Shown in pieces: positions 45,691-48,468 of a stretch of 64,000 nt of DNA; position 1 is the first letter of the stretch; each line of letters opens with the position of its first letter. The notes under the pieces are model-generated. The model had not been told where the DNA came from. It worked only from the letters and a program-made list of their open reading frames with translations, and did not search any database. The position numbers and the translations under genes were made by a program. Source of the DNA: a bacterium (GTDB lineage Bacteria; Bacteroidota; Bacteroidia; NS11-12g; UBA955); assembly GCA_029945665.1 (NCBI GenBank), contig JAQSCZ010000097.1, positions 1 to 64,000 of the forward strand, in the 5' to 3' direction.

Positions 45691-46728
45691 ATGGAACCTC
45701 TACTTATAAAAGTAATTATCGTTGTCGTATTATTTGTTATTACATTGCTTGTAGCATTGTATGCAACTTTTGCTGAACGAAAAGTTTCTGCTATCATGCA
45801 GGATAGAATTGGGCCCAACAGAGCCGGACCATTCGGTCTGTTGCAGCCATTGGCCGATGGTGTAAAAATGATCATGAAGGAGGAGTTGATTCCTGCTTTG
45901 GCGAATAAATGGTTATTTATCATTGGGCCATGTATTGCCTTACTAACTGCTTTGATGACTGGTGCTGTGGTGCCTTGGGGCGGTGCAATAAAAATTGGGG
46001 ACCAAGTCATTAATTTGCAAGTAGCCGATTTAAATATTGGAATTCTTTATATATTTGGTGTTGTATCTATGGGTGTTTATGGCATTATGATTGGAGGCTG
46101 GGCCTCTAATAATAAATTCTCATTAATTGGTGCAATCAGGGCCTCTTCTCAAATGATTAGTTATGAGATAGCAATGGGCTTAGCCATTATTGCTTTGGTA
46201 ATGACAACTGGTACCTTAAGTTTAAATGAAATAGTGATGCAACAGGATGCAGGGATAGCAAATATTGCCATTCAACCACTTGGATTTTTGATTTTTATTG
46301 TCTGCGCATTTGCTGAAACAAACAGAGCACCATTTGATTTACCTGAATGTGAAACAGAATTAATTGGAGGATACCACACCGAGTATTCATCCATGAAATT
46401 AGGATTCTACTTATTTGCAGAATACATCAATATGTTTATTTCATCGGCCGTAATTGTATGTTTTTATTTTGGTGGTTACAATTTTCCATTCCAGCATGTG
46501 TTTGCAGAATTCTTTGGGTTATCAAGCAATGCATTAAGTATTGTACAAACATTCATGATGTTCGGAAAAGTATTTTTCTTCATCTTTTTCTTTATGTGGG
46601 TAAGATGGACCATTCCAAGGTTTAGATACGATCAGTTAATGAATTTAGGTTGGAAAGTATTATTACCTTTGGCTTTAGCGAATATATTTATAACTGGTTT
46701 GGTAATGTGGGGAATGGGGAAAATTTAG
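45691..46728 (+). CDS. nuoH: NADH-quinone oxidoreductase subunit H
   Basis: 'ATFAERKVSAIMQDRIGPNRAGPFGLLQPLADGVKM', 'AETNRAPFDLPECETELIGGYHTEYSSMKLG', 'WVRWTIPRFRYDQLM'. Confidence 0.99.
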   Translation: MEPLLIKVIIVVVLFVITLLVALYATFAERKVSAIMQDRIGPNRAGPFGLLQPLADGVKMIMKEELIPALANKWLFIIGPCIALLTALMTGAVVPWGGAIKIGDQVINLQVADLNIGILYIFGVVSMGVYGIMIGGWASNNKFSLIGAIRASSQMISYEIAMGLAIIALVMTTGTLSLNEIVMQQDAGIANIAIQPLGFLIFIVCAFAETNRAPFDLPECETELIGGYHTEYSSMKLGFYLFAEYINMFISSAVIVCFYFGGYNFPFQHVFAEFFGLSSNALSIVQTFMMFGKVFFFIFFFMWVRWTIPRFRYDQLMNLGWKVLLPLALANIFITGLVMWGMGKI

Positions 46729-46731
46729 GGA

Positions 46732-46803
46732 GAGTTGGCAGTTGGCAGTAGACAGTTGGCAGTTGGCAGATAGAAAATTGCAGTTGGCAATTTGCAGTTG
46801 GCA
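46732..46803 (+). repeat. GTTGGCA heptad repeat array, left boundary of the four-helix-bundle gene cassette
   Basis: GTTGGCA at 46734, 46741, 46755, 46762, 46783, 46797 (six copies); includes inverted-repeat arm AGTTGGCAATTTGCAGTTGG (46782-46801). Confidence 0.92.
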
Positions 46804-46836
46804 AAAGACAAAAAAAGAAACAAAAAAAGAATACAA

Positions 46837-47229
46837 GTGGCAGACTTCAAAAATTTGACCGTTTATAAAAAAGCATTTGAACAAGCAATGAACATATACG
46901 AAATTTCCAAAGAGTTTCCAGATGAGGAAAAATGGTCTTTAACAAGTCAAATAAGAAGATCTTCTCGTTCTGTTTGTTCTAATTTGGGAGAGGGTTACAG
47001 AAAAAGATTATATGAAAACCACTTCATTAGTAAAATTAGTGATGCTGATATGGAAAATACTGAAACACAAGTATGGTTTGATTTTGCACTAGCCTGTAAT
47101 TATATTGATACAAATAAATTTATAGAATTAAATTCGCATTCTGAGGAAATAGGCAGATTATTAAATCATATGATTTTAAACCCTTCAAAATACACAAGCA
47201 GCAACACAAGAATTACAAAAAAGAACTAA
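46837..47229 (+). CDS. Four helix bundle protein (S23 ribosomal protein / 23S rRNA intervening-sequence protein-like)
   Basis: 'FKNLTVYKKAFEQAMNIYEISKEFPDEEKWSLTSQIRRSSRSVCSNLGEGYRKR...FISKISDADMENTETQVWFDFALACNYI'; GTG 46837 proposed, since the ORF-track TTG start at 46792 lies inside the repeat. Confidence 0.9.
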   Translation: MADFKNLTVYKKAFEQAMNIYEISKEFPDEEKWSLTSQIRRSSRSVCSNLGEGYRKRLYENHFISKISDADMENTETQVWFDFALACNYIDTNKFIELNSHSEEIGRLLNHMILNPSKYTSSNTRITKKN

Positions 47230-47261
47230 TAATATTCACATGAATTATACTTTAAATATTA

Positions 47262-47288
47262 CCAACTGCAAACTGCCAATTGCCAACT
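47262..47288 (-). repeat. Right inverted-repeat arm of the cassette
   Basis: Reverse complement AGTTGGCAATT-GGCAGTT-TGCAGTTGG; equals the left arm plus one heptad (GGCAGTT is a rotation of GTTGGCA). Confidence 0.9.
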
Positions 47289-47294
47289 AAAACT

Positions 47295-47897
47295 ATGTTA
47301 ACGAACAGAAGTAAACAAGTCGTAAAAAGAGAAATGACTTTCATGGAAAAAGCCTACATACCGGCAATTTTTTCAGGCATGATCATTACTTTCAAGCACA
47401 TATTTATGAAAAAGGCCACGGTGCGCTATCCTGAACAAACCCGTCCTTTTGCTCCAGTATACCGCGGTCAGCATGTATTGAAAATAGATGACGCTGGTGC
47501 TGAAAGATGCACTGCTTGTGGCTTATGCGCAGTGGCTTGTCCTGCTGAAGCTATAACAATGGTAGCAGCTGAAAGAAAAAAAGGAGAAGAACATTTATAC
47601 CGCGAAGAAAAGTATGCCTCAATCTATGAGATCAATATGTTGCGTTGTATTTTTTGTGGCTTGTGCGAAGATGCTTGTCCAAAGGAAGCCATATTCCTTA
47701 CCGATAGAATTGTGCCCAGTAGTTTTGAACGCGATGAATTTATTTATGGTAAAGATAAATTAGTAGAAACTAAGGAACACCCTGTTGATGTAACCAAAAG
47801 ACAAACACCAGCTGTTATTGAATTTAAAAAGGATAAGAAACATAAACACAACCTTACTTTTCTTGATAAAGTAACCAAGACATTTAACAGACATTAA
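47295..47897 (+). CDS. nuoI: NADH-quinone oxidoreductase subunit I
   Basis: Two 4Fe-4S motifs 'CTACGLCAVACPAEAI', 'CIFCGLCEDACPKEAI'; ATG 47295 preferred to the TTG at 47280 inside the repeat. Confidence 0.98.
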   Translation: MLTNRSKQVVKREMTFMEKAYIPAIFSGMIITFKHIFMKKATVRYPEQTRPFAPVYRGQHVLKIDDAGAERCTACGLCAVACPAEAITMVAAERKKGEEHLYREEKYASIYEINMLRCIFCGLCEDACPKEAIFLTDRIVPSSFERDEFIYGKDKLVETKEHPVDVTKRQTPAVIEFKKDKKHKHNLTFLDKVTKTFNRH

Positions 47898-47967: not shown

Positions 47968-48468
47968 ATGAGCATTACACTAATTATTTTTTGGTTTCTA
48001 TCGTTCTTAGCATTGTTAAGTGCAGCGATGGTGGTATTTGCTAAAAATCCTGTTCACAGTGTTTTATACCTAATCATTACTTTCTTCGCTATCGCCGGAC
48101 ATTACTTATTATTAAGCGCTCAGTTTTTAGCGGCTGTACACATCATAGTGTATGCTGGGGCCATTATGGTTTTATTCCTTTATGTTCTAATGATGCTTAA
48201 TCTGAATAAAGAAACAGAGCCGCATAAAAAGCCATTGATTAAATTTATTTCAATCATTGCTGCAGGTTCACTCATGTTAACCTTAGTTGCTGCTTTTAAA
48301 GGAACAGAAATAGCAGTGGTGTCTAATGCAGACCCAAGCATCGGTTCGGTAGAAAGTTTAGGTAAGGTACTATTTAGCGAATTTTTACTGCCCTTCGAAG
48401 TATCTTCAATATTATTTTTGGCAGCCATGGTTGGTGCTGTTTATTTATCAAAAAAAGATTTAAATTAA
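47968..48468 (+). CDS. nuoJ: NADH-quinone oxidoreductase subunit J
   Basis: '[54 protein letters not shown]'. Confidence 0.97.

Follow-up and report, generated by a model that had tools for sequence, protein, structure and literature searches.

Between nuoH and nuoI, the window (the whole stretch of DNA that was analysed, 64 000 nucleotides in length) carries a cassette consisting of a 5′ heptad array, an S23 gene and a 3′ inverted array, which probably belongs to a widespread family of mobile elements that move slowly and insert into operon gaps. The analysis established insertion of the cassette, an anatomy shared across phyla, reuse of the same gaps, a heptad type linked in part to the S23 lineage and purifying selection on the protein. 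Core operons with such insertions comprise nuo, sdh, isc, fad, groES–groEL, ribonucleotide reductase and cas genes, so that the insertions matter when such operons are annotated or their expression is studied. Descriptions of bacterial heptamer repeats have so far been piecemeal, with no agent named, and a tie between S23 and heptads offers a testable account of both, as well as of the spread of 23S rRNA intervening sequences (IVSs).

The features of the cassette are summarized in Table 1. As stated in the preliminary description, the nuo operon is otherwise uninterrupted, with nuoJ, nuoK and nuoL following at 47968, 48470 and 48816. All six exact GTTGGCA heptads that it had placed 3′ of nuoH were located (46734, 46741, 46755, 46762, 46783 and 46797, forward strand) and a further exact copy is found on the reverse strand at 47281; the units of the 5′ array are AGTTGGC-type heptads. 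The array adjoins the nuoH stop codon (TAG, 46726–46728) as described, but begins 4 bp after it and not 3 bp, while the inverted arm does end 6 bp upstream of nuoI. The quoted arms are correct: residues 46782–46801 read AGTTGGCAATTTGCAGTTGG, and the reverse complement of 47262–47288 is the same sequence plus one additional 7-nt unit. The number of units in the 5′ arm varies with respect to the orthologues in genomes G006 and G011. The 14-mer GTTGGCAGTTGGCA (allowing one mismatch) has 31 matches in its own genome compared with 0 for the pattern read backwards, so the heptads are not a product of chance. The open frame of S23 extends from TTG at 46792; GTG at 46837 is the likely start codon, as the G006 and G011 orthologues have ATG at the same position. 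The pair of inverted arms around the gene (46733–46804 and 47258–47288) corresponds both to the stem of an IVS and to the inverted ends of a transposon, and the location between nuoH and nuoI, not inside a 23S rRNA gene, sets the cassette apart from an IVS.

Table 1. Features of the nuoH–nuoI cassette and its host genes (window coordinates)
Feature	Position	Strand	Basis
nuoH, upstream host gene	45691..46728	+	ORF; homologues in relatives 66–95% identical
5′ heptad arm, AGTTGGCA array	46733..46804	+	six exact GTTGGCA units plus degenerate units
A-rich leader, 5′ arm to S23 start	46805..46836	+	read from sequence
S23/IVP four-helix-bundle gene, GTG start (likely)	46837..47229	+	PF05635, TIGR02436, PDB relatives
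3′ spacer, differs among orthologues	47230..47257	+	orthologue comparison
3′ inverted heptad arm	47258..47288	-	arm comparison; one mismatch to G006 arm
nuoI, downstream host gene, ATG at 47295	47295..47897	+	ORF

The encoded protein is a four-helix-bundle IVP/S23 protein, as had been proposed: it matches PF05635 (9e-31; 106.7 bits against a cut-off of 33.8) and TIGR02436 (6.5e-27; 93.9 bits against 24), and the fold is settled because the Pfam match is joined by sequence matches to solved structures of related proteins (PDB entries 2rld and 2gsc). The Avd profile NF033474 gives 29.3 bits against a cut-off of 80, far below the level of a DGR accessory Avd protein. S23 is the sole gene in the cassette, in which a Pfam search found no transposase or recombinase domain; a search of Rfam at this locus returned no family and a phage search with the window S23 protein gave no match. 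We know of no transposase domain in S23 and, to our knowledge, S23 genes have no established function. Comparison with the G006 orthologue gives a dN/dS of 0.036 (dS of ∼1.0), and purifying selection on the S23 protein is seen in most orthologue pairs. S23 genes are present in 156 of 200 sampled Bacteroidota genomes, with at most 16 in a single genome.

NuoH homologues were present in 26 of the 40 genomes searched. Inspection of the orthologous junctions for empty sites, as the preliminary description had proposed, revealed eight relatives (G003, G007, G009, G010, G012, G013, G015 and G022) in which the nuoH–nuoI gap is ∼20–75 bp long and contains neither S23 nor heptads; the cassette at nuoH–nuoI is therefore an insertion. 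S23 with arms occupies this gap in G000, G006 and G011, heptads without S23 are found in G005 and G014, and G016 has a single GTTGGCA past the nuoH stop. The gap in G005 (L134) also contains a second hairpin-like repeat, GTCATCCTTCGACTCCCGGTAGCTATCGGGAC, besides the heptads. G005 has probably lost its S23 gene, since it is nested within the S23-bearing group in the NuoH tree with modest support (83/82). The heptads of G014 may be older than S23 or may mark another S23 loss; if heptads came earlier than S23 at this site, as may be the case in G014 and G016, gene and arms would not be bound to travel jointly every time. The gaps in the relatives are too short and diverged to be aligned or to define a target-site duplication, and when the S23 leader was compared with the old nuoI leader in order to locate the insertion point the similarity was not above that of shuffles. 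The 3′ arm differs from that of G006 at one of 31 positions despite the gene dS of ∼1, while the spacer 5′ of this arm is far more diverged; the 3′ arm is therefore either constrained or kept up by a copying process.

Period-7 arrays border S23 genes in general, which bears out the suggested tie between heptads and four-helix-bundle genes. The flanks of S23 in relatives contain arrays of 7- or 8-nt units (for example GTTTACG, TTAGGGG, GATAGTG and GCGAAAA), and we therefore express the rhythm as exact 6-mer recurrences by distance, a measure for which no sequence is chosen beforehand. The first 32 loci gave 263 recurrences at distance 7 compared with 1–12 at distances 3–6. Over 196 S23 loci the counts are 1042 at distance 7, 399 at 8, 963 at 14 and 583 at 21, compared with 28–51 at distances 3–6, and period-7 recurrence is present in 137 of these loci. 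A set containing 80 loci of named genomes, which were gathered by protein similarity alone, gave 578 at distance 7 versus 11–28 at distances 3–6. Little or no rhythm was observed in DNA 650–900 bp from the gene, in random G235 DNA, in S23-free nuoH flanks and at DGR Avd genes; in particular, no heptads were seen at true DGR Avd loci in the flank comparison. The density of arrays by S23 is ∼30 times that in a random 400 kb of G235. Since empty sites exist and period-7 flanks are general, the two outcomes that the preliminary description regarded as adverse, namely relatives with no empty sites and heptads unrelated to such genes, were not encountered.

Inversion of the arms was assessed by aligning the upstream flank to the reverse complement of the downstream flank for within-locus and between-locus pairs. 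Inverted arms beyond the 99th percentile of between-locus pairs were found at 81 of 192 loci (∼2 expected), so that ∼58% of loci fail this strict test; direct repeats exceed the same percentile at 26 loci. The 81 loci (arm score ≥14) have a median arm of 27 nt and a median loop of 432 nt. The heptad sequence varies by locus and in part tracks the S23 lineage: the proportion of different-site S23 pairs with an arm score of at least 14 rises from 0.4 to 1.2, 4.8 and 17% with rising S23 similarity. None of 2000 permutations reached the observed share, and the mean arm score gave a weaker signal (66 of 2000). The S23 clade of the window gene (98% support) includes the nuoH–nuoI copies, L001/L043 and the fadB–fadA copy of a Flammeovirgaceae genome, and AGTTGGC/AGTAGGC units are common to all of these sites; GGCAGT/TTGGCAG heptads are also present at the Flammeovirgaceae copy. 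A G235 copy with a similar S23 sequence (normalized bits of 0.53 to L135) has AGTTTGC/AGTAGCC arms, and the GRFHF/Y group of S23 proteins has GTTATTG-type units at several sites. GTTGGCA, which had been put forward as a search mark, is accordingly valid as the local type, but other loci and lineages have other heptads and most GTTGGCA sites in the genome itself are without S23.

S23 occupies an operon gap on the same strand as both neighbours at 86 of 97 Bacteroidota loci compared with 162 of 293 gene triples of G235 (55%). Three cyanobacterial plasmid copies are antisense to both neighbours, and same-strand siting is thus a strong bias and no rule. With the names of neighbouring genes read from their sequences, reused gaps include fadB–fadA (27 loci), fadA–acyl-CoA dehydrogenase (12) and sdhA–sdhB (7). 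On the S23 tree, the fadB–fadA label needs 15 changes, at least five of them forced by well supported branches, which indicates that unrelated S23 lineages entered this gap or displaced each other. A single fatty-acid operon holds S23 cassettes in two successive gaps (L188 and L195), and each cassette has a heptad type of its own. Many S23 copies are common to related species and look vertically inherited. A search for recent transposition found no genome with cleanly bounded, near-identical S23 copies at two sites. The adjacent pair of near-identical S23 genes at L180 (G037:C15:1500-5700) was considered as a recent transposition and rejected in favour of tandem duplication. The copies at G235:C1:1748-2065 and 3724432-3724749 (L304 and L305) lie in 3.3 kb identical stretches near both contig ends and probably represent the terminal redundancy of a circular assembly.

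The heptad layout is also found in Cyanobacteriota, Chloroflexi, Gemmatimonadota and an Azospirillum 23S rRNA insertion, although single phylum labels are provisional as MAG contigs are possibly misassigned. Inverted heptads surround S23 between ribonucleotide reductase genes in Nostoc edaphicum (L185), between cas6 and cas4 in Anabaena sp. 90 (L372), in Gemmatirosa (L374), in two Anaerolineae and, apparently between groES and groEL, in a Gastranaerophilales contig; in an archaeal contig (L251), a heptad array lies 3′ of the S23 gene. In Azospirillum lipoferum (L187) S23 lies within 23S rRNA, with GAGGACG/GATGACA units and inverted partners.

MITE and REP/RAYT systems consist of short inverted intergenic elements, many of which lack the gene. 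S23/heptad elements are likewise short, inverted, intergenic and in many cases gene-less, but their ends vary by locus, with only the 7–8 nt rhythm conserved. S23 also shares a fold family and a weak profile match with Avd/bAvd, from which it differs in that the score is not at Avd level and no reverse transcriptase (RT) was found in the genome, while Avd loci have no heptad arms. In the Coxiella burnetii IVS, which has been termed a selfish element, the S23 gene lies between stem-forming terminal inverted repeats, with tandem GACAGAT heptamers, strain-variable in number, directly 5′ of it (PMC4990558). The window cassette has the same arrangement, with S23 between inverted repeats that are able to pair and with heptamers 5′ of the gene; unlike the Coxiella IVS, known copies of which are in 23S rRNA, it lies between protein genes and has its own heptad type. 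PMC4679880 describes TAACTGA as an intergenic heptamer repeat and cites heptamers as the most frequent class of long simple repeat in many bacterial genomes, and PMC4692102 describes GGGAATC/GGGGATT intergenic heptamers in Xanthomonas and Nostoc, with 186 and 183 GGGAATC sites in Xanthomonas and inverted pairs there in 70 and 75 cases. These repeats resemble ours in being 7-nt tandem units between genes in several phyla, some as inverted pairs; in contrast to the present analysis, the accessible parts of both papers link heptamers neither to S23 genes nor to one element anatomy. Heptad repeats and the heptamers beside the Coxiella S23 gene are thus already published. A literature search with little coverage of subscription journals found no paper that connects S23 genes to heptad repeats, Coxiella aside, so an earlier description is possible.

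An alternative that we consider unlikely is that heptads came first, as self-standing intergenic hairpin repeats expanded by slippage, with S23 as a passenger that inserts into or recombines between them. GTTGGCA arrays without S23 at ∼15 sites of the genome itself (counted by pattern search and in sampled chunks) and in the nuoH–nuoI gap of G014 fit this alternative, as does the concentration of GTTGGCA copies in a burst restricted to G000, G005, G006, G011 and G014. One such site (C32; L004) contains an inverted pair ∼130 bp across. In the sampled third of G235 (1.2 Mb, N runs removed), 22 period-7 arrays were found, and for 14 arrays an inverted partner lies no more than 500 bp away; those inspected closely are mostly compact S23-less hairpins of ∼40–125 bp in intergenic gaps. 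The abundance of GGGAATC sites and inverted pairs in Xanthomonas (PMC4692102) points the same way. L131 of G235 shows compact heptad hairpins of differing type without S23 in successive operon gaps (1577–1628 and 2441–2482). Heptads coming first leaves unexplained why heptad type tracks S23 lineage across sites, and gives no reason why the S23 family, and not its Avd relatives, occupies heptads. The S23-less arrays of G235 appear to resemble the S23 arms of that genome, albeit only as a tendency: their mean likeness to these arms exceeds that to random arms, but singly only 5 of 28 pass, and four rows are stretches of N.

A somewhat unlikely reading, which is nevertheless better placed than heptads first, is an RNA element in which the arms form a transcript stem that has S23 as its loop and that RNase III would process, like the stems of 23S IVSs, tuning or separating the flanking mRNAs, with selection on RNA pairing keeping the arms matched. 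In the predicted fold of the transcript the arms are indeed paired (MFE of -116.9, z of -2.88), the Coxiella stem is cut by RNase III (PMC4990558) and the same-strand bias of S23 agrees with this reading. Arm mismatches that break sense-strand pairing nevertheless outnumber those kept as G–U (114 versus 72), a trend opposite to that sought as a sign of selection for pairing, although base-composition bias may contribute and limits this test, and the three plasmid copies antisense to their neighbours also argue against it. The coupling of nuoH and nuoI through RNA suggested earlier is not supported: the arms pair, but their mismatches show no bias towards G–U pairs. Mobility provided in trans by an RT is quite improbable: the homology of S23 to bAvd/Avd, the latter a DGR accessory protein, and the strand bias would suit it, but true Avd loci have no heptads, and the resident trans-acting RT that had been envisaged was not found: RVT_1 gave no match in the genome itself and, among the 33 S23-carrying genomes of the set, 29 likewise had none. 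That S23 is an ordinary housekeeping gene with heptads as chance slippage products is very improbable indeed; heptamers are common simple repeats (cited in PMC4679880), but the ∼30-fold local enrichment, the inverted locus-matched arms and the empty sites contradict it.

With moderate confidence we favour a DNA-level process with putative recognition by S23 of its own heptad hairpin. On the slow-moving mobile-element reading, the cassette would move as one unit, arms included; the S23 protein would recognize its hairpin, probably as DNA, and aid insertion in trans or together with host enzymes. Compact S23-less hairpins would be non-autonomous or leftover forms, and S23-encoding 23S rRNA IVSs would be one branch of the same kind of element that landed in the rRNA operon. 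A broader proposal, which we advance only tentatively, is that S23 is the sole encoded mobility factor of a distinct class of mobile elements, the ends of which would be known by their 7–8 nt rhythm and hairpin form and not by a fixed sequence, with swarms of S23-less hairpins mobilized in trans and with 23S rRNA IVSs and many unexplained heptamer repeats as members.

Slippage in 7-nt steps would lengthen and shorten the arms. Array lengths differ between orthologues by 7 nt in L057/L059 and by 15 nt (7 + 8) in L166/L176. Dense heptad arrays probably break assembly and are undercounted, since two G000 contigs start inside such arrays (G000:C94:1-160 and G000:C2:1-200; L008 and L015). In the tandem pair at L180, a GGTTGA heptad array enters the reading frame and encodes a C-terminal PQPQPQ tail.
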